Of a stretch of 23,444 bases of DNA, positions 3,244 through 17,974 are shown piece by piece; positions within the stretch are counted from its first letter, which is position 1; every line of letters begins with the position of its first letter. Where the stretch lies: IMG/VR virus record IMGVR_UViG_3300027797_000146, positions 1 to 23,444 of that record; one strand, written 5' to 3'. This DNA is from a virus. Made by a program: the position numbers and the translations under genes. The notes below the pieces were generated by a model, which was given only the letters and a program-made list of their open reading frames with translations, had not been told where the DNA came from and ran no database searches.

Positions 3244-3789
3244 ATGAGAAGAGATTTGAAGGCTTGGATTGGAATCCTAGCATTGGTTGGGGTTGTGGCA
3301 CCATTTAGCAACTTTGCCAATGCATCAAGTACGGAAAACAACTTACTAATTAAACAGGCTGAAAACCCTGCTGCCACCCACAAGGTGGCTTTTGTTGTTT
3401 CTAAAGCAAAAATGTTAGAACGTTATGAAAATAAAACACATCTTACAGATGTTGAATTAAAACAACTTCTATCCCTTGTAGGGTTTAGAGGTAATGATTT
3501 AGTAGTGGCTTGGGCTATAGCCAAGAAAGAATCTAATGGTCGTCCTTTAGCATTTAACGGAAACCATAAGACGGGGGATTCATCCTATGGGATGTTCCAA
3601 ATTAACATGATTGACAACCTGGGTCCAGATAGACGTAATAAGTTTGATCTTGACTCTAACGCTGAACTATTCAATCCCGTAAAAAATGCGGAGATTGCAT
3701 ACTATATGTCCAACGGTGGAGACGATTGGTCTTCTTGGAAGGGTATTACCCCAAGGACCAAAGAGTGGATGAAGAAGTTTCCTAAATAA
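3244..3789 (+). CDS. Exported lysozyme-like endolysin / lytic transglycosylase
   Basis: This encodes 181 residues. Residues 1-28 look like a Sec signal peptide: basic MRRDLK, then a hydrophobic core, with probable cleavage after ANA. Residues about 65-175 form a lysozyme-like (SLT/goose-lysozyme type) domain: VAWAIAKKESNGRP with the probable catalytic Glu96, GDSSYGMFQIN (111-121) and DWSSWKG (161-167). This enzyme class cuts the MurNAc-GlcNAc bond of peptidoglycan outside the membrane. The signal peptide suggests export by the host rather than release through a holin. It has a consensus promoter, AGGAGG 8 nt before the ATG, and its own terminator, so it is an autonomous unit. A virion-associated lysin or a resuscitation-factor-like wall enzyme are alternatives. 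Confidence 0.8.
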   Translation: MRRDLKAWIGILALVGVVAPFSNFANASSTENNLLIKQAENPAATHKVAFVVSKAKMLERYENKTHLTDVELKQLLSLVGFRGNDLVVAWAIAKKESNGRPLAFNGNHKTGDSSYGMFQINMIDNLGPDRRNKFDLDSNAELFNPVKNAEIAYYMSNGGDDWSSWKGITPRTKEWMKKFPK

Positions 3790-3870: not shown

Positions 3871-4341
3871 TTATAAATATTTTAGAAGTTCTTTATAACT
3901 TTGATACGCTTCTTTTGTTTCTTTAGTTACAAAAGATGTGTATTTTTCTTTACTTTCATCTTTATTTAATTTAGAAACATCAACGGGAACATAATCAACA
4001 TTAAGTTTGTCAGATACTTTTTTCAGAACAGTACTTGAGTCTGTAATCATTTCATTGAAATCAATAAGAACAACATTATCAATATTATTTAATAGTTCTT
4101 TGTGATAACGAGTATACCATTTTGCTATCTCGGAAACATTGTCATTTTTTCCAATGTAATTTTTCCAACTAAAAATAGAACTATACGGATCACGAACTAC
4201 AACCACTACATTCTCTAGGGTTAATTTAGAAGCGGTATGCTCAGAATAATAGACAGTATAATCTGGAAATGCTTTACTTAGAAGTCCTTGTAAAAAAGTA
4301 GTTCCAGAACGAGGAAAACCCTCTACTATGATAGAAGCCAT
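3871..4341 (-). CDS. Short PAPS-dependent sulfotransferase
   Basis: This encodes 156 residues. EGFPRSGTTFL (7-17) is the 5'-phosphosulfate-binding loop, and VVVVRDPYSSIFSW (46-59), with Arg50 and Ser54/57, is the 3'-phosphate-binding motif of sulfotransferases that use 3'-phosphoadenylyl sulfate. It is shorter than most family members (250-300), lacking much of the acceptor-binding part, but both cofactor motifs are intact. It overlaps the end of the 4661-4326 gene by 16 nt and is the last gene of cassette 2. A substrate cannot be read from sequence: sulfation of a phage adhesin glycan or of host surface sugar are both possible. Confidence 0.8.
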   Translation of the reverse strand: MASIIVEGFPRSGTTFLQGLLSKAFPDYTVYYSEHTASKLTLENVVVVVRDPYSSIFSWKNYIGKNDNVSEIAKWYTRYHKELLNNIDNVVLIDFNEMITDSSTVLKKVSDKLNVDYVPVDVSKLNKDESKEKYTSFVTKETKEAYQSYKELLKYL

Positions 4342-4661
4342 TGTAAGTCATCCTCACTCCAATACCAATCAATACCAGCATCTGGTTTAGCAACAGGGGC
4401 TATCCAATCTGTTTCTATTGTATCAAATATCCATGATGGATATGGCTTTGGTCGCACAAAAGCATCAAACTCTTGCATATATAAATACCCAATACTAGCA
4501 AACCTTTTACGAATTTTACCATTGTAAGATGTTTGTAACCAAATACCACCAAGGTTGCAATCAAGCGCTAAGTAGTCCTGTCCTCTATGTTCTTGTTCAT
4601 CTGGTACAACTAGTACTTGTAGAACAATGTTATTGCTGTCTATTTCTGCAAAATGTGCCAT
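4326..4661 (-). CDS. Tail-fibre assembly-like small protein (paralogue of 7358-7014)
   Basis: This encodes 111 residues. It begins MAHFAEIDSNNIVLQVLVV, a strand pair seen in a family common in aquatic phages. It ends with a tryptophan-rich tail: PKPYPSWIFD, then DWIAPV..P, then YWSEDDLQWL. The W-spaced C-terminus resembles tail fibre assembly (Tfa-like) proteins. The same pattern is present in the protein of 7358-7014. It starts 2 nt after the stop of the adhesin at 6220-4664, which fits a dedicated chaperone or capping protein for that adhesin. The function is inferred. Confidence 0.65.
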   Translation of the reverse strand: MAHFAEIDSNNIVLQVLVVPDEQEHRGQDYLALDCNLGGIWLQTSYNGKIRKRFASIGYLYMQEFDAFVRPKPYPSWIFDTIETDWIAPVAKPDAGIDWYWSEDDLQWLLS

Positions 4662-4663
4662 TT

Positions 4664-6220
4664 TTATTGATACCTAACTATGATAATTCCTGATTGACCT
4701 GAAAGATTTGGCTCGGCCCTACCGCCATTACCTGTGTTTGCCGTAGCAGCCCAACCTGTTCCAGCACCAGCATAGCCACCATCACCATTATTTTGCCCAC
4801 CATCGCCAGCAGCAAAGTAACGAGTAGTGCTAACAAGTACACCAGATGATGTTGCTACACCCCAGGCAGAATAAGTGCTTGTTCCATTTCCACCAGTACC
4901 AGAGGCACTTGTACCATTAGAGTTTCCCCCAGAACCTCCAGCACCGCCACCTCCACCGTTAGAATATTTTAAGTTTGGTGAATTTCCAGTAAGTGAGCCA
5001 TTGCCACCACTGTTTCCTTGCCCCGCAGTTCCTGCACCTCCACTATCTAAAATGTTTGCTCCACCAGTTGTGTAACGCATACATCCTCCACCACCAGAAC
5101 CACCAGATTTAGCATTAACACCATTTCCACTACCAGTCCAACCTCCACCTGCACCGCCACCGCCAACCGCAGCAGTAAGTGAAAGTGATCCTCCAGTAAA
5201 ATTTGAGTTAACTCCACTTGAGCCACCAACACCACTACCGCCACCTGAACCGCCTGCGCCACCTGCGCCAATCGTTGCAGTATAGGTTATTGCATTAGTA
5301 AGTGTTAAACTTCCTGTACTTAATGCACCACCAGCACCGCCAGCGCCTTGAGTACTACCACCTCCACCAGCAACACGTAATACTTCTGCACCAGTAATTG
5401 TGCTAGTTGGAGTAAAAGTTCCAGTAGATGTAAACTTGTGATAAACATAACCATCAGAAATATAAACAGTTCCACCTGTTGCTTTGGCTGCTAAAGGAGT
5501 AACTGAGTTAGATGCAGCAGTTGCTGGTGAATCACCGTTGGCGGTAACTGCTTTAAGTGTAATAGTTGTTGGAGTACCAAGAGTTAAACCTGTAATAGTT
5601 AATGGGCTAGTTGTTTGTGCTGGAGAAAATGCAGTATAAGTAGTTCCATCTGTAGAGTACTTGTAGTTTGTAATTGCTGAACCACCAGTAGAACCAGCGG
5701 TAAATGTAAGTTCAACATTACCTACAGTTCCTACTCCAGTTGCTGTTCCAATTGTTGGAGTCTGAGGTAGTGTTTGCGGTGTTTGGCTATTGGAAGCACT
5801 AGATGCTAATGCATTACCAAATCCATTACTTCCTGTAACTGTAAATGTATACGCAGTTCCAGCAGTTAAACCTGTAACTAAAATTGGGCTTGATGAACCT
5901 GATGCAGTAATTGATCCAGGAGATGACGTTACTACAAAATTTGTTGGCAACCCACCATTTGATGGTGGAGTAAAAGGAACACTTACAGCGCCAAGTTGTG
6001 CAAATGTTCGAGTTGAACCTTCTGAAGCAGTTGCAGTACCAATAGTAGATACACCTGGGGGAGCAGAACATACTTGCCATCCAGTGGCTGTATAAATTTC
6101 AAGAACGCCATTCTCGCCATTATAATATGCGGTACCAACAACAGGGGATGCTGGGCGTGATGCCGTATCACCTTCTGGAATCCCACCACTCTCAGGTAAA
6201 GGATAAACTGATTGAGCCAT
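4664..6220 (-). CDS. FN3 / glycine-rich adhesin (receptor-binding fibre), copy 2
   Basis: This encodes 518 residues. The start at 6220 is chosen because AGGAGATAGAATA lies directly before MAQSVYPLPES; the longer frame to 6277 would run across the promoter. Layout: a short N-terminal domain ending CSAPPG (about 1-60); two fibronectin-III-like domains (about 62-150 and 155-250, with ITNYKYSTDGTTYTAFSP in the second); then TSTGTFTPTSTITGAEVLRV and a C-terminal domain (about 290-518) dominated by GGGGAGG-type repeats. Glycine-rich sandwich domains of this kind form the receptor-recognising tip of some phage adhesins. It heads cassette 2 (adhesin, assembly-like protein, sulfotransferase) and is a diverged copy of 8725-7355. 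Confidence 0.8.
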   Translation of the reverse strand: MAQSVYPLPESGGIPEGDTASRPASPVVGTAYYNGENGVLEIYTATGWQVCSAPPGVSTIGTATASEGSTRTFAQLGAVSVPFTPPSNGGLPTNFVVTSSPGSITASGSSSPILVTGLTAGTAYTFTVTGSNGFGNALASSASNSQTPQTLPQTPTIGTATGVGTVGNVELTFTAGSTGGSAITNYKYSTDGTTYTAFSPAQTTSPLTITGLTLGTPTTITLKAVTANGDSPATAASNSVTPLAAKATGGTVYISDGYVYHKFTSTGTFTPTSTITGAEVLRVAGGGGSTQGAGGAGGALSTGSLTLTNAITYTATIGAGGAGGSGGGSGVGGSSGVNSNFTGGSLSLTAAVGGGGAGGGWTGSGNGVNAKSGGSGGGGCMRYTTGGANILDSGGAGTAGQGNSGGNGSLTGNSPNLKYSNGGGGGAGGSGGNSNGTSASGTGGNGTSTYSAWGVATSSGVLVSTTRYFAAGDGGQNNGDGGYAGAGTGWAATANTGNGGRAEPNLSGQSGIIIVRYQ

Positions 6221-6299
6221 TATTCTATCTCCTAAGTTTAATGATTTTATTATATCATATTTTAAATAAGGGTACAAACCATTATTTTGGCGGTATTTA
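6193..6299 (-). repeat. 107-bp repeated promoter/leader, copy 2
   Basis: This segment and 8698-8804 are nearly identical across the first codons of the adhesin, the ribosome binding site, the -10/-35 region and beyond. Differences are a few substitutions plus one inserted and one deleted G. The repeats are in the same orientation, 2.5 kb apart. Confidence 0.85.
6249..6277 (-). promoter_or_regulatory. Promoter of adhesin cassette 2
   Basis: On the minus strand TTGTAC (6272-6277), a 17-bp spacer and TATAAT (6249-6254), giving a leader of about 20 nt that carries AGGAG before ATG 6220. A GGCGGT / ACCGCC inverted repeat (6289-6294 with 6306-6311) lies just upstream. Confidence 0.7.
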
Positions 6300-6318
6300 C
6301 ACAGGACCGCCTATATGA

Positions 6319-7035
6319 TCATTTTAAGAATAACCCTACATTTGTATATTTGGCAGTGTGATATAACTCATAATCGTTGTGCATTAAAGACTCCAATAAG
6401 GAGATTTCTTTTGGGGTTAGAGATTCTCTAAATAGTTTAGATTTAGGGTTAATAATGTTATGTAGTGTACTATCAAGATACTCAGTTTTAGGCTCAAGGT
6501 TAAAGTGTTTACGAGATAACTCTAAACTTTTTTTTGCTGTACCGTGATTTATGTCATCCATCTTAAAAAGATAATCAACCTTAGACAGTCTTTCTTTAGC
6601 CAAAGCAAGATCAGAGTCTTCAACCTTATCGCTTAAACATATTCCATCAATATCAATAATTTTTTCATTACCGTTGTAAGATATAAATTTTGTCTGATAA
6701 TCAACAATTTCTTTTGTTGGATTGTTAAACATAAAATCTAGAAATTCTTTTTTGTATTCTTTAATATCTCCAGTTAAGTATTTCCTGTAAATATGTTGAT
6801 AATGACTAATTGTTCTTGAAATAGGGTCTCTAAGAATTGAAAAACTTAAAACATTATTGTTGTCTAAAGGTTTAAATGAAGCATGTCCATATCCATTAAC
6901 AATATCAGTATACTGTTGCCCACTGGCTATAAAGTCATGCTCAAGTAGCCTTATAACATTTGCGTAAAAAAATCTTCCAGCAGTTTTAGGTATATGAAAA
7001 AACCATAATGGCTTTATGCTGTTGTTCTGTTCCAC
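6319..7035 (-). CDS. Sulfotransferase (Sulfotransfer_2-like), cassette 1
   Basis: This encodes 238 residues. WFFHIPKTAGRFF (11-23) is the HIPKTAG form of the 5'-phosphosulfate loop, and SFSILRDPISRTISHY (64-79), with Arg69 and Ser73/76, is the 3'-phosphate motif. Both are typical of the carbohydrate sulfotransferase group that includes heparan 2-O-type enzymes. The start is a GTG at 7035, overlapping the end of the 7358-7014 gene by 22 nt, with GAGG about 10 nt upstream; no ATG precedes the cofactor loop. It occupies the same cassette position as the smaller sulfotransferase at 4341-3871 but belongs to a different branch, so it is unlikely to be a simple copy. The substrate is unknown. Confidence 0.78.
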   Translation of the reverse strand: MEQNNSIKPLWFFHIPKTAGRFFYANVIRLLEHDFIASGQQYTDIVNGYGHASFKPLDNNNVLSFSILRDPISRTISHYQHIYRKYLTGDIKEYKKEFLDFMFNNPTKEIVDYQTKFISYNGNEKIIDIDGICLSDKVEDSDLALAKERLSKVDYLFKMDDINHGTAKKSLELSRKHFNLEPKTEYLDSTLHNIINPKSKLFRESLTPKEISLLESLMHNDYELYHTAKYTNVGLFLK

Positions 7036-7358
7036 TTCTGATTAGCCTCATCCCACTCATAATTAACCCCGTGTGCTCCATACAAAAGTTCTGGATGTAC
7101 CGCAGGCGCTACCCAGATTTTTTTAGTGTTATCCCATAGCCAAGATGGATATGGCTGCGGTGGTTGGAATTCATTATCAGTAAAAATATTACCAATACCG
7201 CAGTTGGCATATTCATCGGTAATTTTAAATGCAGTTAATGGGTCTACTCCAGTTACTACTTCTTGTGCTTCTAAAAATATATTAATGTTTTCTGGCTCTT
7301 CTTCAAAATAAATAATAGAAACAACAACATTATCTTTATCAATAAATGCATAATTCAT
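7014..7358 (-). CDS. Tail-fibre assembly-like small protein (paralogue of 4661-4326)
   Basis: This encodes 114 residues from the ATG at 7358 (MNYAFIDKDN), which has AGGA 7 nt upstream and overlaps the adhesin stop as ATGA. The in-frame ATG at 7409 lies inside the adhesin and is not preferred. The C-terminal pattern QPYPSWLWD..KKIWVAP..HP...YEWDEANQKW matches the paralogue. It is a candidate dedicated assembly factor for the adhesin encoded just upstream. Confidence 0.65.
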   Translation of the reverse strand: MNYAFIDKDNVVVSIIYFEEEPENINIFLEAQEVVTGVDPLTAFKITDEYANCGIGNIFTDNEFQPPQPYPSWLWDNTKKIWVAPAVHPELLYGAHGVNYEWDEANQKWNRTTA

Positions 7359-8725
7359 CCTATTATTACCACCAATCCGCTTGTTCCTGCTTTTCCTGGC
7401 TGCGCCCATGTCGCTCCGCCAGCACCGCCACCTTTAGCAACTGCTACTGCATTTGTTGCAGCCTGTGCGCCTCCGCCATATCCGTTGATGCCAGCCCAAG
7501 GACTTCCTGGACCAGTTCCAGCATAAGAGCCAGAACCCGCTGGTGGATAGTTTGAGTTATTTCCGTTTCCATAACTTACATTAAGAGCACCAGTTCCGCC
7601 TAGACGACCACCCAAAGTTGCATTAGCGCCATTGCTTCCATTGTAGCCACCTATGCCACCACCATTACCACCTGCATCAGAAGTTGCTCCGCCACCTGAG
7701 CCACCATTGCCAAGGTTAGAAGAGTTGCCACCATAAGAACCACCCGCAGCAGAAACTAATGTAGTTCCGCTTCTAACTACAGATGTTGTTCCTCCATTAT
7801 TTGTGTTTGCTGGACCGCCAGCACCAATGTTAACTGTTAAAACATCTCCAGCAGTTAAATTTACGCTTGCTGAAGTATAGTAACCACTACCGCCACCGTT
7901 GGCTTGATTAGAGTTACCTCCGCTAGATCCGCCACCTCCAACTGCTTTAAGTGTATAGGTTCCACTAGCAGGTGCTGTAAAGGTTCCACTAGATGTAAAG
8001 GCAGTAACTGATGTTGGTGTAGCACTATTAGATGCGCTAGAAGCAACGGAGTCACCATTAGCGTTTACTGCTTTTAGTCTTAATGTGTATGAAACACCGT
8101 TTGTTAATCCAGAAACGGTTAATGGACTAGTTGTTTGTGCTGGTGAAAATGCAGTATAAGTAGTTCCATCTGTTGAATATTTGTAGTTTGTAATTGATTT
8201 ACCACCAGTAGAACCAGCAGTGAATGTTAAACTTAGCGTTCCACTTGCATTAAGATCTGTAGCAGTTCCGATAGTGGGAGCCTGTGGAACAGTTGTTAAT
8301 GCTGTAGTTACTGATGGAGAGGCAACGCTAGTTCCATAACCGTTATAGATTGTTCCAGTAAGACTCCAACTGCCACTATCGCCAACAGTAATTACAACTG
8401 GATCTGATGTAGAAGTTGCTGTGTATCCACCAGTAGATGAAATTGCTGTATAGCCTATTGAAGTTCCACCGATTGGATTTGGTGTAAAATCAACACTAGC
8501 CTGTGCAGAGCCGTAGGCCATACCAGTACCAACATCTGTTACTGCAATTGTTGGTTGACCAGGAGGAGCAGAACAAGGAACCCAATCGGATCCATTGTAA
8601 ATTTCTAATATTCCATTTGTTCCATTATAAAATACATCACCAGTAGCGGGGCTGCCTGGGCGAACACCTGTTGTGCCAGTGGGAATACCGCTACTTTCAG
8701 GTACAGGGTAAACTGATTGAGCCAT
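7355..8725 (-). CDS. FN3 / glycine-rich adhesin (receptor-binding fibre), copy 1
   Basis: This encodes 456 residues from ATG 8725, chosen for the AGGAGATAGAATA directly upstream and the match to copy 2. It shares the N-terminus MAQSVYP.PES.GIP, the CSAPPG border and a near-identical second FN3 domain (ITNYKYSTDGTTYTAFSP). The first FN3 domain is diverged. The glycine-rich C-terminus (about 275-456: TSSGTFTAPASGTYTLKAVG, then GGGGSSGG-type runs) is diverged and shorter. This is the pattern expected when the tip changes for receptor specificity while the attachment part is kept. It heads cassette 1. Confidence 0.8.
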   Translation of the reverse strand: MAQSVYPVPESSGIPTGTTGVRPGSPATGDVFYNGTNGILEIYNGSDWVPCSAPPGQPTIAVTDVGTGMAYGSAQASVDFTPNPIGGTSIGYTAISSTGGYTATSTSDPVVITVGDSGSWSLTGTIYNGYGTSVASPSVTTALTTVPQAPTIGTATDLNASGTLSLTFTAGSTGGKSITNYKYSTDGTTYTAFSPAQTTSPLTVSGLTNGVSYTLRLKAVNANGDSVASSASNSATPTSVTAFTSSGTFTAPASGTYTLKAVGGGGSSGGNSNQANGGGSGYYTSASVNLTAGDVLTVNIGAGGPANTNNGGTTSVVRSGTTLVSAAGGSYGGNSSNLGNGGSGGGATSDAGGNGGGIGGYNGSNGANATLGGRLGGTGALNVSYGNGNNSNYPPAGSGSYAGTGPGSPWAGINGYGGGAQAATNAVAVAKGGGAGGATWAQPGKAGTSGLVVIIG

Positions 8726-8804
8726 TATTCTATCTCCTAAGTTTAATGATTTTATTATATCATATTTTAAATAAGGGGCACAAACCATTATTTTGCGGTA
8801 TTTA
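8698..8804 (-). repeat. 107-bp repeated promoter/leader, copy 1
   Basis: Direct repeat of 6193-6299. It covers the start of the adhesin, its ribosome binding site and promoter, and reaches into the upstream side of the divergent glycosyltransferase promoter. Confidence 0.85.
8754..8783 (-). promoter_or_regulatory. Promoter of adhesin cassette 1
   Basis: On the minus strand TTGTGC (8778-8783), an 18-bp spacer and TATAAT (8754-8759), with the same leader and AGGAG as copy 2. One extra G in the spacer and a changed -35 make it probably slightly weaker than copy 2. Confidence 0.65.
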
Positions 8805-8818
8805 TATTTCATTGGCTG

Positions 8819-8830: not shown

Positions 8831-9793
8831 ATGAAGATAGCAATAACAGCCTATGTTGACAATAGCCCTAAGTTTGTAGATGAGTGTAATCTAATGACCT
8901 ATAGTGGTCGTGGGCTAGATTCTAGGTTTACCTTTGTTTTATATGCCCACCCAGATATTGTTGATAAGTTAGATCGTCATATGAATGTTAAGATTGTTCC
9001 CTATACCGTTCCAGATAGGCAGTTTTATAAAGACTATAAATTTGCTAGGTCCATGGTTTTTCCATATGATTTGCCTGGGCCACTAGAAGAATATGACTAT
9101 ATTTGTAAGACAGACACAGATGTATTTTTAACTCCTATGATGAATCACTTTCCATTTTCTACTAACAAAATATATGTTGGAAGAGGATATTATAGTGCTA
9201 CTCCAGGTTCTATAGAATCACTAAAAACTGCTGCAGTTCAATTTGGATATCCAGAATATAAAAGAATTGAAGATATGCATTCAACCATTATTGGTCCTAC
9301 ACAAGACATAATCAATATTATGAAACTTTCTGATGAACTAGAAGAAAAGATGTACTACGGACTAGAGTCTGATGGCGAATGGGGAGGAGATTCTTTGTTT
9401 AGGGGCTACATTGGAAATACATCTGGAGTTTGCTCTATGTATGCTATGGAAATAGTTCTTTCTTCTTTATACCCTGAAATTGTTGTAACAAATAAAATAG
9501 ACTCTGGATCTGATTGGGAAACTCCTTGGACTGATGTATATCATATGCACCAATATCACCATGACAACATATATTCAAAATTTCAAGCAAAGTGGGGAGC
9601 ATACTTAAACTTAGAACATAGAGACGGTATAAGTTCTGCAGACTATGCACTAAACACCTATATATCTAAACTAAGTTATATAAATAACAAGTCTGAATTT
9701 TTTAATAACCACGACGTATATTCTGAGCCAGCACCCCTAAACCCTTATTGGGGAGAAGGACTTTTAGTTAAATATAGTTTTAATAAAAAATAG
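8831..9793 (+). CDS. Putative GT-A-type glycosyltransferase
   Basis: This encodes 320 residues. It opens MKIAITAYVDNSPKFVDE and has ICKTDTDVFLTP (91-102), a DxD motif (Asp95-Asp97) that binds the metal and nucleotide sugar in GT-A enzymes. WGGDSLFRGYIG and later YHMHQYHHDN are possible acceptor or metal-binding parts. No membrane segment or signal is seen, so it acts in the cytoplasm. It is the only plus-strand gene between 3.8 and 17.5 kb, with its own leaderless promoter, and meets the 10607-9795 gene tail to tail with one base between the stops. It could glycosylate a virion protein, a surface polymer or DNA; nothing in the sequence decides this. Confidence 0.7.
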   Translation: MKIAITAYVDNSPKFVDECNLMTYSGRGLDSRFTFVLYAHPDIVDKLDRHMNVKIVPYTVPDRQFYKDYKFARSMVFPYDLPGPLEEYDYICKTDTDVFLTPMMNHFPFSTNKIYVGRGYYSATPGSIESLKTAAVQFGYPEYKRIEDMHSTIIGPTQDIINIMKLSDELEEKMYYGLESDGEWGGDSLFRGYIGNTSGVCSMYAMEIVLSSLYPEIVVTNKIDSGSDWETPWTDVYHMHQYHHDNIYSKFQAKWGAYLNLEHRDGISSADYALNTYISKLSYINNKSEFFNNHDVYSEPAPLNPYWGEGLLVKYSFNKK

Positions 9794-9811
9794 ACTATTG
9801 ATTTTCTATTT
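9788..9811. terminator. Weak AU-rich hairpin spanning two convergent stop codons
   Basis: AAATAGA (9788-9794) pairs with TCTATTT (9805-9811), and both stop codons lie within it. It is purely AT-rich apart from two G-C pairs, so termination would be inefficient. Confidence 0.35.
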
Positions 9812-10607
9812 CAGACTTTATTGACTCTGCAAAACTAATGCCTGGACTCCACTGAATACTGCTTCTATTATCTATGTTTGGAAGAACAGTTACATCTGGC
9901 AAACTTAATACAGTATAGGAAATGTTATATCCATTTTTTTTATATTCTTCTACAACATCAAGCATTGTTTTTTGTTCTCCAGTAAATATATCTGTAATTA
10001 AAAAATTATTATTCTGTATATATTCCATGGCTAAAAGATTTGCTTTTGCTATGTCTGAAATGTCAACATAGTCTCTTTTAGAATCTGGATTGTTTATTTT
10101 TATACTAGGTCTATTGTTAATTATTGAAAATATGTTAGTACCATTTTCATCACGAATAGTTTTGGTTTTTCCAACTAGATTAAAATATCTTAAGATGGCT
10201 AATCTCTTACATAAAAACTTTAATATTTTTTCTTCAATTAGTTTGGATTTAGCATAAGGATTTTTTGGACCATAGACTGCTGCTGAAGAAGCAAACACAA
10301 CTGGAATATTTAAAGCCCTTGAAACAATACCTACAAAAAAACTTGACAATAAATTATTTAAATAATAAGACATAGGATTTTTTATAGATTCAGGAATAGA
10401 CTTTTTAGCAGATAAATGAATAATTGCTTTTGGTTTTTTTAAAGATACATAAAACAATTTAAAAATGTTTCTTACATCGTTGCCACTTTTTTTATCAAAC
10501 TCTATAATACTGTATCCGTTATTGATTAAAAGTTCTGTTGTTGCTGTTCCAACATATCCAGAAGATCCAGTTACGACAACCCTAGCAATTGTCAAGAACT
10601 TCTCCAT
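9795..10607 (-). CDS. NAD-dependent nucleotide-sugar epimerase/dehydratase (SDR)
   Basis: From ATG 10607 this encodes 270 residues. VVVTGSSGYVG (10-20) is the TGxxGxxG dinucleotide-binding loop, HLSAKKSIPES follows the fourth strand, and PYAKSK gives the catalytic Tyr118-x3-Lys122. RDYVDISDIAKANLLA is typical of the extended SDR group that includes UDP-glucose 4-epimerase. It is shorter than usual (about 310-340), with a trimmed C-terminal substrate domain. A TTG at 10595, spaced 6 nt from GGAG, is an equally plausible start and would leave MTIARVVVTG. The gene overlaps the end of the GlcNAc-transferase-like gene, so the pair probably makes and uses one activated sugar. Confidence 0.78.
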   Translation of the reverse strand: MEKFLTIARVVVTGSSGYVGTATTELLINNGYSIIEFDKKSGNDVRNIFKLFYVSLKKPKAIIHLSAKKSIPESIKNPMSYYLNNLLSSFFVGIVSRALNIPVVFASSAAVYGPKNPYAKSKLIEEKILKFLCKRLAILRYFNLVGKTKTIRDENGTNIFSIINNRPSIKINNPDSKRDYVDISDIAKANLLAMEYIQNNNFLITDIFTGEQKTMLDVVEEYKKNGYNISYTVLSLPDVTVLPNIDNRSSIQWSPGISFAESIKSEIENQ

Positions 10608-11499
10608 TAATAAAATCAAGACCTGCAAAGGTTCCATATTCTGCTAAAGTTCTTTTTGTTCCAAGTAAATATTCTCCGACTGTTCCTTCTGTTAAGGTTT
10701 TATAAATAAGAGCCCTAGAGATTTTGTCTAACTCATCAAACTCATTAGAAAAATCTTGCCAAAGAAGTTTTCTTTTATTTATTTCTACATCAATATTGTG
10801 GTTATAGTATAAATGATACATGTATTGTTTATCTGGAACTAACAAATCAAAACCATTAGTGTAGGCTCTTGCTGCAAGCCAAATCTCTTCTCCATAAAAC
10901 GCTATATCTGTGTTAAATGGTAAAAACCCTTTTACTGTAAAAATAGATCCTCCAGAAACAGACTTTACAAATTGATTTTTATTCTCAACTGGTGTTGCTG
11001 TCTGTGATGGAATCCTTATTGCTTTAAACTGTTCTGGTTTTTCATTAAATTGTATATTACTAACATTATCTGAAAAGATTAAATCTTTTTGTATAAATTT
11101 TGAAGTTAGGGATGGGTACCAATAGTTTGCTGGATACATGGTTAGCAATGGTTTTTCAATTCCTTGAATTTGATAGTTTAAAACTGAATTTATTACAATC
11201 TCATCCCAGTTATCAACAAACCTTGAATGAGAATCACACTGTAAATAATAATCTTCTCCATCATAAAATTGATGAGCAAGGGCTCTACCCATTCCTAGCC
11301 CAATGTTATTAGGTGCTTTGCTTTCTGCATGTTTTACATTAGGCAAGTCTGGAACATTAATTTCTGATTCGTCAACATAAACTGTATGAACACCAAAATT
11401 AATTGTGTGGTTTCCAGAAGACTGCTTGATTGCATCTAGAATTGTAGGAGTTACTTCTAAGTCTCTGTATGCTGCTATCTGTATAAATATACTAGCCAT
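10582..11499 (-). CDS. GlcNAc-transferase-like glycosyltransferase (GT60 type)
   Basis: This encodes 305 residues from ATG 11499, which overlaps the radical SAM stop as TAATG and has GGGGAG upstream. It opens MASIFIQIAAYRDLEVTPTI and carries YLQCDSHSRF (86-94), the DSH.RF signature, plus PFNTDIAFYGEEIWLAARAY and NGFDLLVP. These match the GlcNAc family named after the Skp1 hydroxyproline N-acetylglucosaminyltransferase. That family adds GlcNAc to a hydroxylated side chain of a protein in the cytoplasm. Next to a threonine-rich protein gene and an epimerase gene, it is a good candidate for decorating a phage protein through O-linked sugar. The acceptor is inference. Confidence 0.78.
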   Translation of the reverse strand: MASIFIQIAAYRDLEVTPTILDAIKQSSGNHTINFGVHTVYVDESEINVPDLPNVKHAESKAPNNIGLGMGRALAHQFYDGEDYYLQCDSHSRFVDNWDEIVINSVLNYQIQGIEKPLLTMYPANYWYPSLTSKFIQKDLIFSDNVSNIQFNEKPEQFKAIRIPSQTATPVENKNQFVKSVSGGSIFTVKGFLPFNTDIAFYGEEIWLAARAYTNGFDLLVPDKQYMYHLYYNHNIDVEINKRKLLWQDFSNEFDELDKISRALIYKTLTEGTVGEYLLGTKRTLAEYGTFAGLDFINGEVLDNC

Positions 11500-12503
11500 T
11501 AGTCTCCCCAAATCGCATGTACGCATGTTCTGCAAAAACTTTCAAAAGATTTAACAGTCATACTCTTGTGCTCAATACTCATCCAGATATCACTAATTGG
11601 TTTTTCATTGATATTGCCAAATACCGTTTCAAAATCGTAATCATTGCAACAAATAAAGGTATCTCCATTAGCAGCAACGTGAAGCCATCCATTTGGCCTT
11701 CCACCAACTTCTATTCCATTGCCGCAGCCAATTACTCTTTCCTTGCCTCTTTTTTCTTTACTCTCAATAGCACTTTTATTTGTAATAATTTGATGAGTAT
11801 CTAGGTGACCGTTTCTATCAACAAGGTATGGCATTTCATAAACTTGAAGTCCTGGGAATTTATCAACCCAGCCATTCTTCATTCTTGCAAGGGTACCAGT
11901 ATTAGGATCCATGTCCATTTCTGGAGCATCTTTAAGTGTTTGAATCCATCCACCATATTCAACAAGAGAATTCTTATTAATGCCGTTTACCTGAATTGAC
12001 ATAGCCTTGCTTGCTACCATATCTGGTAACTGCTCTACTGCATATGTTACTTGTTCCATTAACTTATCAAACATTTTTACAGGCTTACCAGTTGCTTTTG
12101 ACCATTCTTCTGGTTCTGATGCGGGGATATTAAAACAAATTCCATGAACAACATCTTGATATTCTCTAATGAGATCAGTTCTTGCTTTTGTCAGAGGTGT
12201 TCCATTAGTCAATACAATGGTTCTTATTTTGTTCTTTCTTAGAACCTCCAACATCTCTGGAAAGTGCTTGTAAAGTAATACCTCATTGTAGTGTGCTGTA
12301 TAGATAAAGTCAAAGTTTTCAGAAACAAATGTGCCTTTACCTGCCATTAATTGATTAATAATACTTTCAAATACATCTATTGGCATGTTTGTTCTTTGTG
12401 CTAAAGGGTTTTCGGCATATCTAACTGGACAAAACCAACAACCTACATTGCAAAGGCCGTTTGGATCTATTTGTGCCATAGATATTTTATACTGGTACTT
12501 CAT
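11499..12503 (-). CDS. Radical SAM/SPASM enzyme
   Basis: This encodes 334 residues. GLCNVGCWFCPV has the CxxxCxxC triad (Cys18, Cys22, Cys25) that holds the SAM-cleaving 4Fe-4S cluster. The C-terminus has a SPASM-like part: WLHVAANGDTFICCNDYD, then FGNINEKPISDIW, then FCRTCVHA. SPASM enzymes carry extra clusters and often modify peptides or sugars. The start is 1 nt after the stop of the zinc-ribbon gene. In this operon it could modify the cysteine/threonine-rich protein encoded upstream or a sugar intermediate; the sequence does not tell which. Confidence 0.8.
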   Translation of the reverse strand: MKYQYKISMAQIDPNGLCNVGCWFCPVRYAENPLAQRTNMPIDVFESIINQLMAGKGTFVSENFDFIYTAHYNEVLLYKHFPEMLEVLRKNKIRTIVLTNGTPLTKARTDLIREYQDVVHGICFNIPASEPEEWSKATGKPVKMFDKLMEQVTYAVEQLPDMVASKAMSIQVNGINKNSLVEYGGWIQTLKDAPEMDMDPNTGTLARMKNGWVDKFPGLQVYEMPYLVDRNGHLDTHQIITNKSAIESKEKRGKERVIGCGNGIEVGGRPNGWLHVAANGDTFICCNDYDFETVFGNINEKPISDIWMSIEHKSMTVKSFESFCRTCVHAIWGD

Positions 12504-12504
12504 A

Positions 12505-12735
12505 CTACCACTTACCTATTGGACACTTTGCTGCTTCTAGTTTTGTTTTTATACTCATAATACATCCACACTTTTTACATTGGGATGTTAGTTTTATTAA
12601 TTCTGGACAACCTTGACATATTGACATTCTAGATGTTGCTAATTCATCAGATGCGTGTTTTGTCATTGGGTTAAGCAAGTCTAATGGAGTTACACCATTT
12701 TTTTCTTTATACTGTTCCCACCTTGATTTTGACAT
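12505..12735 (-). CDS. Small zinc-ribbon protein (DUF6171-like), copy 1
   Basis: This encodes 76 residues. The C-terminal half has CQGCPELIKLTSQCKKCGC, then a basic helix ending AAKCPIGKW: six cysteines in a C-x2-C-x9-C-x2-C-x-C-x11-C array likely to bind metal. The N-terminal half (SRWEQYKEKNGVTPLDLL) is different from that of its paralogue at 17777-17974. GGGGGA lies just before the ATG and a -10-like TATAAT about 30 nt upstream. It is one base from the radical SAM gene, which suggests a linked role. The biochemical function is unknown. Confidence 0.7.
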   Translation of the reverse strand: MSKSRWEQYKEKNGVTPLDLLNPMTKHASDELATSRMSICQGCPELIKLTSQCKKCGCIMSIKTKLEAAKCPIGKW

Positions 12736-12764
12736 ATATCCCCCGTTTTATAAACTATACTTTA

Positions 12765-12770
12765 ATTATA
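12765..12770 (-). promoter_or_regulatory. -10-like TATAAT upstream of the zinc-ribbon / radical SAM genes
   Basis: On the minus strand CAGG-TATAAT overlaps the stop codon of the previous gene. It would give a leader of about 22 nt carrying GGGGGA before ATG 12735. The -35 region is poor. Confidence 0.4.
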
Positions 12771-13194
12771 CCTGATCGTTTTCAGATGCTCTTGGATGGC
12801 TAGGATGCCATGGCAAAAGTCCAGTCATATCTCTATTTGTAATAACAAACTTCTCTCCATCAAAAAGAGCATTAGGAGATTGAACATATCTTCCAAATGG
12901 ATAATCTGACAACTTCAGTACTGTTGGATTACTTAGTAATATACTACCAAAATATTCACTAGTTTGCAACTCTCCAACAGTTTCACTATCTTTTATAAAT
13001 TTAATAGTTATACCAGCATAATCTGGGTATTCTGAAGAAATATCAATAACCTCTTCACTAGTAAGAAACATATCTGAGTATTCTTGCCAAACGGGAATGT
13101 CATATAAACACTCTCCATCTATTACCCATACTAAAGCAACTCCATCAATACCGTCGTTTCCTCTAGCATATAATATACTTGAATCTGTTAACAA
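12766..13194 (-). CDS. Hypothetical protein between the mucin-like and zinc-ribbon genes
   Basis: I prefer a TTG start at 13194 (142 residues) because GGGAGG sits 6 nt before it; an ATG at 13215 (149 residues) is the alternative but would lie on the Shine-Dalgarno sequence. The gene overlaps the end of the threonine-rich gene by 7 nt. The protein is mixed alpha/beta with clusters such as DGIDGVALVWVIDGECLYD and HPSHPRASENDQV. No known motif is recognised. Tight coupling to the threonine-rich gene suggests a partner in the same structure. Confidence 0.6.
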   Translation of the reverse strand: MLTDSSILYARGNDGIDGVALVWVIDGECLYDIPVWQEYSDMFLTSEEVIDISSEYPDYAGITIKFIKDSETVGELQTSEYFGSILLSNPTVLKLSDYPFGRYVQSPNALFDGEKFVITNRDMTGLLPWHPSHPRASENDQV

Positions 13195-14060
13195 TTTATT
13201 CCTCCCTGATAACATCTGTTAAATGGTGGGTTATTACATGCTGATCCTGATCCGCAATCAGTAGAACATCCAGTAGATGCACAACATCCAACAGAAACGT
13301 CAAGAGATGTACATGTTACTCCAGGTGCTGCAGTTGTTGTAGTTGCTGCAGTTGTAGTTGCTGCAGTTGTAGTTGCTGCAGTTGTAGTTGCTGCAGTTGT
13401 AGTTGCTGCAGTTGTTGTTGATCCTGCTCCTGGACAGTTTCCTGGGTATCCAGATGTAGGAACGCCATATCCTAGTGATGCGCAATAAGTTAAAGGTACT
13501 GCTGTAGTTGCAACAGTGGTTGTAGTTGCTGCAGTTGTTGTAGTTGTTGTAGTTGTTGTAGTTGCAGGGGCACAGTTTGGAGTAGCAGGATATGAGGTTC
13601 CGTATACTACAGAAACATTTGTTTCTCCAGTTTGAGATTGTGTACAGAATGAAGACAAAGCATCACGAGCATTTGATTCTGAAACATTGCTGCTTCCATA
13701 AATAACAGTACCATCACAACATCCAATTGCATACCAAGCATTAGGAGAAGCGGTTGTGGTTGTTGCAGCGGTTGTGGTTGTTGCTGCAGTTGTAGTTGTT
13801 GCAGCGGTTGTGGTTGTTGCTGCAGTTGTAGTTGTTGCTGCCGTAGTAGTTGTTGTTGGGGCAGGAGTTCCTGGGGCAGAAGTAGTTGTTGTTGCAGCAG
13901 TAGTTGTAGTTGTTGCTGCCGTAGTAGTTGTAGGGGCTGCAGTTGTAGTAGTTGCTGCTGCAGTGGTTGTAGTTGGTGCAGAAGTAGTTGTAGTAGGTGC
14001 AGGGGTTGTTACTAAACTTAAGAATATACCAATTGCGCTGGGGTTACGAAATAGTGGCAC
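13188..14060 (-). CDS. Threonine-rich mucin-like protein with cysteine-rich C-terminus
   Basis: This encodes 290 residues, GTG start with AGGGG 5 nt upstream. There are three low-complexity Thr/Ala blocks: about 18-105 (TTTTAA repeats), 167-187 (a run of Thr) and 214-244 (TTTAA repeats). They are separated by two small globular segments (about 106-165, with GCCDGT and YGTSYPATPNC; and about 188-213). The last 41 residues contain 8 Cys, suggesting a disulfide or modified module. Long Thr/Ala/Pro runs are typical of flexible, heavily O-glycosylated stalks. Downstream genes encode two sugar enzymes and a radical SAM enzyme, so a decorated virion stalk or fibre is a reasonable inference. Confidence 0.75.
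   Translation of the reverse strand: MPLFRNPSAIGIFLSLVTTPAPTTTTSAPTTTTAAATTTTAAPTTTTAATTTTTAATTTTSAPGTPAPTTTTTAATTTTAATTTTAATTTTAATTTTAATTTTASPNAWYAIGCCDGTVIYGSSNVSESNARDALSSFCTQSQTGETNVSVVYGTSYPATPNCAPATTTTTTTTTTAATTTTVATTAVPLTYCASLGYGVPTSGYPGNCPGAGSTTTAATTTAATTTAATTTAATTTAATTTTAAPGVTCTSLDVSVGCCASTGCSTDCGSGSACNNPPFNRCYQGGINC
13336..13410. repeat. Five perfect 15-bp tandem repeats (TTTAA codon block)
   Basis: The unit gttgtagttgctgca occurs five times in a row with no mismatch, encoding TTTAA on the minus strand. The unit is a multiple of three, so gain or loss keeps the frame. Confidence 0.95.
13750..13839. repeat. Five 18-bp tandem repeats (TTTTAA codon block)
   Basis: Units of the type gcggttgtggttgttgca with a few substitutions, encoding TTTTAA. 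More degenerate copies continue to about 14008. Confidence 0.9.
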
Positions 14061-14068
14061 GTTAACCC

Positions 14069-14653
14069 CTAAGCAAACTTAGATTGAGATGCCAGACATG
14101 TGAAGGTAGCAGAAGCAGTTTTTCTAATCTGTATCATATACACATCTGTTGCGTTAGCATTTCCTGCGGTAGGGGCTGTTCCACCCAGCCATTTAGGAGT
14201 AACGGCATTACCATCAATAGTATATGCAGTAGCATAATATGGTGTAGAACCGTTTGGATGTTCAAATGTAACTGTAATAGATTCGCCAATTGCCATTAAT
14301 GAGTTTAAAGTAGTTGAGGCATTTCCACGAATATTTAAAGTATAGTTTGCAGTTGAGTTTGATGTATAAATATGAACGGATGCTGTGCTTATATTAAGGT
14401 GTACAGTTCCAGTAGCAGCCGTTGCTGATATTGCTGCAGTTTCTCTTGGAGATGTTAGTGTTGTTATTTGTGTTTGTAAATTATTTAGTGTATAGGCAAT
14501 TGATGGGTTTACAAGGTTTGCGGTATTTGTATTTGCTGTGCTATATGCTGTAGAACCATAGTGGTAGAGTCTAAATGCCGCTTGAATGTCAGCATTGTCT
14601 GCATACCCAGGTATTTGTGTGGGATAAATTGAGCCTATAGATTCAGATGCCAT
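14069..14653 (-). CDS. Tail-associated structural protein
   Basis: This encodes 194 residues, with GAGGTGAAATGAC before the ATG. The opening IYPTQIPGYADNADIQAAF is followed by RLYHYGS, an N-terminal signature that recurs in fibre or tail proteins of aquatic phages. Then comes a predicted helix (LNNLQTQITTL) and a beta-rich C-terminal domain ending IRKTASATFTCLAS. It lies 8 nt before the threonine-rich gene, so the two are probably translated together and may attach to the same structure. Confidence 0.65.
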   Translation of the reverse strand: MASESIGSIYPTQIPGYADNADIQAAFRLYHYGSTAYSTANTNTANLVNPSIAYTLNNLQTQITTLTSPRETAAISATAATGTVHLNISTASVHIYTSNSTANYTLNIRGNASTTLNSLMAIGESITVTFEHPNGSTPYYATAYTIDGNAVTPKWLGGTAPTAGNANATDVYMIQIRKTASATFTCLASQSKFA

Positions 14654-17776: not shown

Positions 17777-17974
17777 ATGTCAGATGATGTTAAGCCTTGG
17801 GACTTATTTAATGGTTCCCCCAGGTCGCCAGAAGAAGTTGCAGCACATAGATTAGAAATATGTAAAGGCTGTGATTTCTTTAGACCTATGACCCAAACAT
17901 GCAAGAAGTGTGGTTGCTTTATGGCTGCTAAGTCTATGCTTGCTAATGCTAAATGCCCAGTGGGTAAGTGGTAG
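17777..17974 (+). CDS. Small zinc-ribbon protein (DUF6171-like), copy 2
   Basis: This encodes 65 residues. CKGCDFFRPMTQTCKKCGC and the ending NAKCPVGKW give the same six-cysteine array as the 12735-12505 protein, including the invariant CKKCGC and KCP.GKW. The N-terminal part (KPWDLFNGSPRSPEEVAAHR) differs. The two are therefore paralogues that have joined different operons. Translation is probably coupled to the preceding gene since no ribosome binding site is visible. Confidence 0.7.
   Translation: MSDDVKPWDLFNGSPRSPEEVAAHRLEICKGCDFFRPMTQTCKKCGCFMAAKSMLANAKCPVGKW

Follow-up and report, generated by a model that had tools for sequence, protein, structure and literature searches.

Threonine-rich mucins of Trypanosoma cruzi (∼50% Thr, 10% Ala, 9% Pro) bear α-linked N-acetylglucosamine (GlcNAc) on Thr, transferred by a polypeptide GlcNAc transferase (PMC3769586), a GT60-type enzyme whose action is followed by the addition of galactose-type sugars (PMC3769586; Heise 2009, PMC2704902). 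A relative, the Skp1 hydroxyproline GlcNAc transferase of protists (Gnt1, GT60), acts after a prolyl 4-hydroxylase (P4H), and fusions are frequent among the enzymes of that pathway (PMC8724618). Mycobacteriophages glycosylate their own virion proteins with phage-encoded transferases; the targets reported by Freeman et al. 2023 are the C termini of capsid and tail-tube proteins. Few cases of phage virion glycosylation are known, and DNA or host glycans are often named as the targets of phage glycosyltransferases. Here, a candidate system is described from the IMG/VR virus record IMGVR_UViG_3300027797_000146, positions 1 to 23,444 (the window, 23,444 bases). It comprises a Thr/Ala-rich fibre protein (THR), a small protein (UNK), a six-cysteine ribbon (ZNR1), a radical SAM/SPASM enzyme (RSAM), a GT60-family transferase, a nucleotide-sugar epimerase (EPI), and a DUF7164 protein.

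The genes probably form a fibre-tailoring cassette: THR would be a fibre of the tail or decoration type, and its Thr/Ala stalk would receive O-linked sugars in the cytoplasm while virions are being assembled. Comparison of related sequences suggests a matched system, in which a change in stalk chemistry goes with a change of enzymes. As in T. cruzi, a GT60-type transferase accompanies a protein of ∼50% Thr with Ala and Pro, and the mucin composition is close to that of the THR stalk. In contrast to T. cruzi, the predicted phage system would be cytoplasmic, with a Cys-tipped fibre and with a linked ribbon, radical SAM enzyme, and GT6-like enzyme. The likeness to the Skp1 pathway lies in related phage cassettes that pair a P4H-type oxygenase with GT60 and contain enzyme fusions, whereas the phage acceptor would be a repeat stalk instead of one residue, the window itself carries no oxygenase, and the extending transferases belong to other families. 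By analogy, the phage loci appear to mirror both eukaryotic GT60 pairings, with a Thr-rich mucin and with hydroxyproline. Mimivirus L230, a bifunctional collagen lysyl hydroxylase/glucosyltransferase, is likewise a viral product that hydroxylates and glycosylates a repetitive protein of the virus, but it belongs to a giant virus, its target is collagen Lys, and a single enzyme does both. The proposed target here also differs from those in mycobacteriophages, being the mucin-like stalk of a fibre whose locus encodes GT60, GT6-like, radical SAM, and ribbon proteins. Literature searches found neither hydroxylation with glycosylation of a phage fibre nor a fibre-matched system, which is weak evidence of novelty.

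Recurrence of the cassette and its match with stalk chemistry

Related loci (L numbers) were collected with a GT60 query (31 loci) and an RSAM query (58 loci), and circularity was avoided by anchoring further sets outside the cassette, on a lysozyme-like gene and on a structural-region gene of a second phage backbone. The order fibre-UNK-ZNR-RSAM-GT60(-EPI) recurred in different backbones, with GT60 identity down to about 40 to 50%, and across unrelated backbones the cassette was placed directly after Thr- or Pro-rich fibres. Nearly all loci from the RSAM query kept ribbon, RSAM, and GT60 in this order, in some with an oxygenase intercalated between the first two; L049, L050, and L077 departed from it (L078 is an incomplete locus). 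In the lysozyme-anchored set, 37 complete loci were reduced to 27 clusters, and a stalk was defined as 60 residues or more. Tailoring enzymes were present in 15 of the 16 clusters with a stalk versus 2 of the 11 without (Fisher P = 1e-4), and GT60 alone in 6/16 versus 0/11 (P = 0.05). The earlier note on this DNA, made from the sequence alone, had proposed a protein-glycosylation unit centred on a phage mucin and had named co-occurrence in relatives as a check. The set does recur in many relatives and several backbones beside a Thr- or Pro-rich fibre, and this comparative co-occurrence backs the core of that proposal, although not its extension to a sulfated stalk (see below).

In the second backbone, one fibre position behind the same anchor was occupied by TTTTAAP, PT, VVPP, VTPP, PPPIIAT, or APTPV repeats. 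Enzymes were tallied against stalk class in 69 deduplicated loci, a set partly retrieved with GT60 or RSAM queries, so that its GT60 figures are biased. All 18 poly-Thr stalks were accompanied by GT60 and only 2 by an oxygenase, whereas the 13 Pro-Thr stalks had GT60 in 9 and an oxygenase in 10. For the 31 Pro-rich, low-Thr stalks the counts were 4 for GT60, 25 for the oxygenase, and 7 for GT61, and every GT61 locus (8/8) had V(V/T)PP-like or VTPA/VTPV-type repeats. Within the anchored clusters (n = 47), GT60 was found in 11 of 15 with a Thr fraction of at least 0.30 but in 4 of 32 below that value (P = 7e-5). Among GT60 loci, a P4H-type oxygenase was present in 13/16 with Pro-rich stalks versus 4/20 others (P = 6e-4), or 12/15 versus 0/16 once loci with Hint (hedgehog/intein-like) fibre tips were removed. 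These oxygenases, which occupy a slot in the cassettes of related phages, carry an HxD...H...R motif with H80, D82, and R141 invariant. Prolyl 4-hydroxylases were both the top hmmsearch matches of their profile (E = 1.6e-14) and their best solved relatives, and their pairing with Pro-rich stalks therefore implies putative hydroxyproline-linked variants. The GT60 tree showed 4 changes of stalk class (shuffled mean, 11.6) and 10 of phage backbone (shuffled mean, 15.4); stalk type thus tracks the enzyme lineage more than the phage.

Tentatively, and at a little under even confidence, these pairings may be extended to an exchangeable stalk-tailoring code, in which a repeat and its enzyme family are passed on together as a matched set. 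GT60 would belong to poly-Thr, prolyl hydroxylase and GT60 to Pro-Thr, prolyl hydroxylase and GT61 to V(V/T)PP-like, and an O-fucosyltransferase-like protein to APTPV-like repeats. Phages would in this way build mucin-like or extensin-like, hydroxyproline-glycosylated fibres. If true, the code would be a form of posttranslational modification undescribed for bacteriophages in the literature searched. The tracking of enzyme with fibre gives an acceptor prediction for widespread unassigned genes (DUF7164, DUF6171/phrog_13558, radical SAM/SPASM, and 2-oxoglutarate [2OG] oxygenases), and the cassettes are a possible source of small enzymes, active in the cytoplasm, with which bacteria could produce mucin-like and perhaps hydroxyproline-linked glycoproteins. 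They also have a bearing on how phages vary their host-contact fibres.

Two further features of these loci were recorded. The protein encoded at L186:2517-3554 and its relatives have weak similarity to O-fucosyltransferases (PF10250, E = 2e-4, below the cutoff); they mostly replace GT60 and mostly occur with APTPV- or PT-like stalks. Runs of consecutive 2OG oxygenase genes follow the fibre region, with or without RSAM, in L049, L050, and L172 to L176.

Genes and proteins of the cassette

All six genes that the earlier note had listed were found at 9795 to 14060 on the minus strand (Table 1). Pfam bore out the epimerase, GT60, and radical SAM/SPASM domains, and a subthreshold DUF6171 match together with phrog_13558 (E = 1.4e-17) bore out the six-Cys ribbon. 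THR and UNK overlap by 28 nucleotides (nt), gaps of 30 and 1 nt separate UNK from ZNR1 and ZNR1 from RSAM, and GT60 overlaps EPI; if GT60 starts as in its relatives (ATG at 11499), it also shares 1 nt with the RSAM stop. These are genuine genes that evolve under purifying selection: ratios of nonsynonymous to synonymous substitution (dN/dS) against relatives were 0.06 to 0.10 for GT60, 0.03 to 0.06 for RSAM, 0.09 to 0.12 for ZNR, 0.19 to 0.24 for UNK, and 0.21 to 0.33 for EPI. The plus-strand DUF7164 gene belongs to the cassette as well, and the unit is therefore larger than the six genes first noted.

THR (290 amino acids [aa]) contains 100 Thr, 52 Ala, 20 Pro, 14 Cys, and no Lys. A conserved N-terminal anchor, MPLFRNPSAIGIFL, is followed by a Thr/Ala stalk of TTTTAAP-like repeats and a Cys-rich C-terminal tip; the anchor is common to fibres of another phage backbone, where it reads MSPLFRNPSGIGV. 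At 189 to 194 residues, with a Thr fraction of ∼0.48 and Pro of 0.08, the stalk is a long Thr/Ser/Pro-rich repeat of the kind that characterizes mucin-like proteins. The 100 Thr codons of THR are mixed (46 ACT, 42 ACA, 10 ACC, and 2 ACG), and the protein is thus more than a DNA-level repeat. Profile searches of Pfam and PHROG gave no match to THR or UNK. The adjoining gene encodes a phrog_5906 protein, whose homologue in Roseobacter phage CRP-3 is annotated as a putative structural protein. Its N-terminal 65 aa are 54% identical to the N terminus of the L007 fibre, and L007-type phages carry the phrog_5906 N-terminal domain and the stalk in one protein, so that a known structural domain adjoins the fibre here and is joined to it there. 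With these features THR looks like a virion fibre, of the tail or decoration type. Nearly all fibres of this kind end in Cys-rich tips of ∼25 to 45 residues. UNK was found in 14/15 loci with a CTS..VGCC tip but in 15/54 without it, a distribution that suits the role proposed for it here, of tip partner or assembly factor. Its AlphaFold2 (AF2) model (predicted local distance difference test [pLDDT] score, 88) has two beta-beta-alpha-beta units, for which no match was found in the PDB and nothing convincing among viral models.

The GT60 product matched PF11397 with an E value of 3.8e-33 and 115.9 bits, against a curated cutoff of 21, and D101, H103, E216-E217, and H241, including the metal-binding DxH motif, were invariant in an alignment of 28 sequences. 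No solved structure is close to it in sequence. Searches of INPHARED with the GT60 and RSAM proteins gave no match, and hence no cultured carrier phage was found there. In bacterial genomes, the GT60 profile retrieved 54 loci at 24 to 30% identity; in the SAR86 genomes L101, L111, and L125 the homologue lies directly beside an opposite-strand 2OG oxygenase gene. EPI matched Pfam Epimerase (E = 1.6e-23), and its top NCBIfam match was GalE (E = 8e-26, under that model's cutoff). For the DUF7164 protein, an AF2 model (pLDDT 78) was compared by Foldseek, and the top 50 matches were all α1,3-galactosyltransferases or ABO transferases (E = 5e-9, probability 1.00, template modelling score ∼0.5). By sequence it matched DUF7164 as its only Pfam family, with 9 to 12% identity to these enzymes in the structural alignment, and it is therefore classed as having a GT6-like fold and not as GT6. 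The model identifies it as a predicted second glycosyltransferase with a GT-A fold like that of GT6/ABO enzymes. In L017 and L020 its gene has GT60 on one side and the epimerase on the other, and L018 encodes a single DUF7164-GT60 fusion protein (594 aa); in L221:9326-10528 a zinc ribbon is fused to the GT60 N terminus (400 aa). Through these fusions the ribbon, GT60, and DUF7164 are linked in a single function.

Proposed pathway and competing explanations

The pathway that we infer for the fibre-tailoring cassette would begin with GT60 placing an α-linked N-acetylhexosamine, probably GlcNAc, on stalk threonines as the first sugar. The GT6-like DUF7164 enzyme would then extend it with galactose or N-acetylgalactosamine, the uridine diphosphate sugar coming from EPI. 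ZNR1 may recruit the acceptor, holding acceptor and GT60 together, UNK may serve the Cys-rich tip as an assembly factor or partner, and RSAM would further alter either the sugar or the tip.

Several observations weigh against this explanation. Fibre and enzymes could travel as a block without any chemical dependence. None of the 54 bacterial GT60 loci had a ZNR, RSAM, or Thr-rich stalk nearby, so that GT60 family membership alone leaves a protein acceptor unproven. The P values given above overstate independence, since stalk class switches only about 4 times on the GT60 tree, and the thresholds and stalk classes were chosen after the data had been inspected. Five Hint-tip loci carry an oxygenase, mostly together with Thr-rich stalks. 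In the anchored set alone the link between oxygenase and Pro-rich stalks was only a trend (33/42 versus 2/5; P = 0.10), and the idea that this set proves it was rejected.

The same bacterial homologues are in keeping with an unlikely alternative, that the transferases act on host surface glycans (in receptor masking, superinfection exclusion, or serotype-like conversion) and that adjacency to the fibre is incidental; such roles have been proposed for phage glycosyltransferases generally (PMC10202952). However, most stalk-less fibres have no cassette, enzyme content tracks the chemistry of the stalk repeats, a P4H-type oxygenase has no clear target on a polysaccharide, and no flippase-type gene was recognized in the unit. 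The stalk might instead be an unmodified flexible spacer that moves together with the enzymes as a host-range island. Physical linkage is indeed strong, stalk class switches independently only a few times on the GT60 tree, and the variability of fibre islands is known (PMC10202952), but linkage alone predicts neither the oxygenase-Pro nor the GT60-Thr pairing, nor the low dN/dS and the fusions of ZNR, GT60, and DUF7164, and we give this explanation roughly a one-in-ten standing. Production of a hypermodified, glycosylated DNA base is very improbable. Radical SAM enzymes do take part in thymidine hypermodification. Phage glycosyltransferases are able to act on DNA (Pyle et al. 2024, cited in PMC12619734). 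In opposition to this, the cassette sits in a fibre gene cluster and changes along with the fibre, and the unit has no recognized gene for a hydroxymethyl-pyrimidine or a base kinase.

Within the fibre-tailoring explanation, the reaction of RSAM is unsettled between a sugar and a peptide substrate. Its sequence matched Radical_SAM (E = 3.8e-9) and SPASM (E = 6.9e-10) in Pfam, and in an alignment of 31 sequences C18, C22, and C25 of the CxxxCxxC motif and the SPASM cysteines C260, C285, C286, C324, and C327 were invariant; the RSAM profile retrieved no relative from bacterial genomes. Among solved structures RSAM comes nearest to BtrN, an enzyme with an aminocyclitol substrate, and this relation favours a sugar. 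A peptide is favoured by the constancy of the Cys-rich tips and by the recurrence, in further loci without GT60, of other SPASM enzymes in the same slot. It is accordingly conceivable, though somewhat doubtful, that RSAM introduces a thioether or other crosslink into the tip, a chemistry carried out by SPASM enzymes in some ribosomal peptides, so that the fibre carries crosslinks as well as sugars. RSAM was lacking in 4/5 deduplicated loci with a Hint-type tip, as this would predict, but L030 and L018/L019 combine Cys tips with a cassette without RSAM, and L023 has RSAM together with a Hint tip. With these exceptions, a strict tie between RSAM and Cys tips was rejected as a rule.

Hint C-terminal fibre tips, with a Cys start and a VSGILIHNK end, were seen in L024:5086-7740, L029:5526-8072, L023, L026, L027, L184, and L191. 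Their similarity suggests possible self-cleavage or transfer of the fibre end; in these loci an oxygenase is present and RSAM mostly missing.

Neighbouring fibre units

Two further units, each consisting of an fn3/Gly-rich fibre, a small partner, and a sulfotransferase, lie at 3871 to 8812 of the window, and their fibre N termini are near-identical. The first of these trios, containing the sulfotransferase ST2, recurs intact and alone in L305 and L306. The earlier note had considered sulfated glycans possible; because both sulfotransferases end separate fibre units, and one such unit travels alone, sulfation of the Thr stalk is unsupported. The trios fit a general plan of fibre, small partner, and tailoring enzyme.

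Table 1. Features of the cassette and of neighbouring units (window positions)
Feature	Position	Strand	Basis
phrog_5906 virion protein adjoining the fibre	14069..14653	-	phrog_5906, E = 2.2e-28
THR: anchor, Thr/Ala stalk, Cys-rich tip; proposed glycan acceptor	13188..14060	-	Sequence features
UNK: small protein; proposed tip partner or assembly factor	12766..13215	-	Covariation with fibre tip
ZNR1: six-Cys ribbon, DUF6171-like/phrog_13558	12505..12735	-	Profile matches
RSAM: radical SAM/SPASM enzyme	11499..12503	-	Pfam
GT60-family transferase, DSH motif; likely start 11499	10582..11535	-	PF11397
EPI: GalE-like nucleotide-sugar 4-epimerase; proposed donor supply	9795..10637	-	Pfam Epimerase; TGxxGxxG, YxxxK
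DUF7164 protein: GT-A glycosyltransferase, predicted GT6-like fold; convergent to EPI	8831..9793	+	PF23741 and predicted structure
First sulfotransferase unit, fibre	7355..8812
First sulfotransferase unit, small partner	7014..7409
First sulfotransferase unit, sulfotransferase (ST2)	6319..7035
Second sulfotransferase unit, fibre	4664..6277
Second sulfotransferase unit, small partner	4326..4661
Second sulfotransferase unit, sulfotransferase	3871..4341

Elsewhere in the window, a lysozyme-like (SLT_3) gene lies at 3244 to 3789 (+), with its nearest annotated phage relatives in Streptomyces and Prochlorococcus phages. A second six-Cys, DUF6171-like ribbon is encoded at 17777 to 17974 (+), beside a small gene and distant from any transferase.

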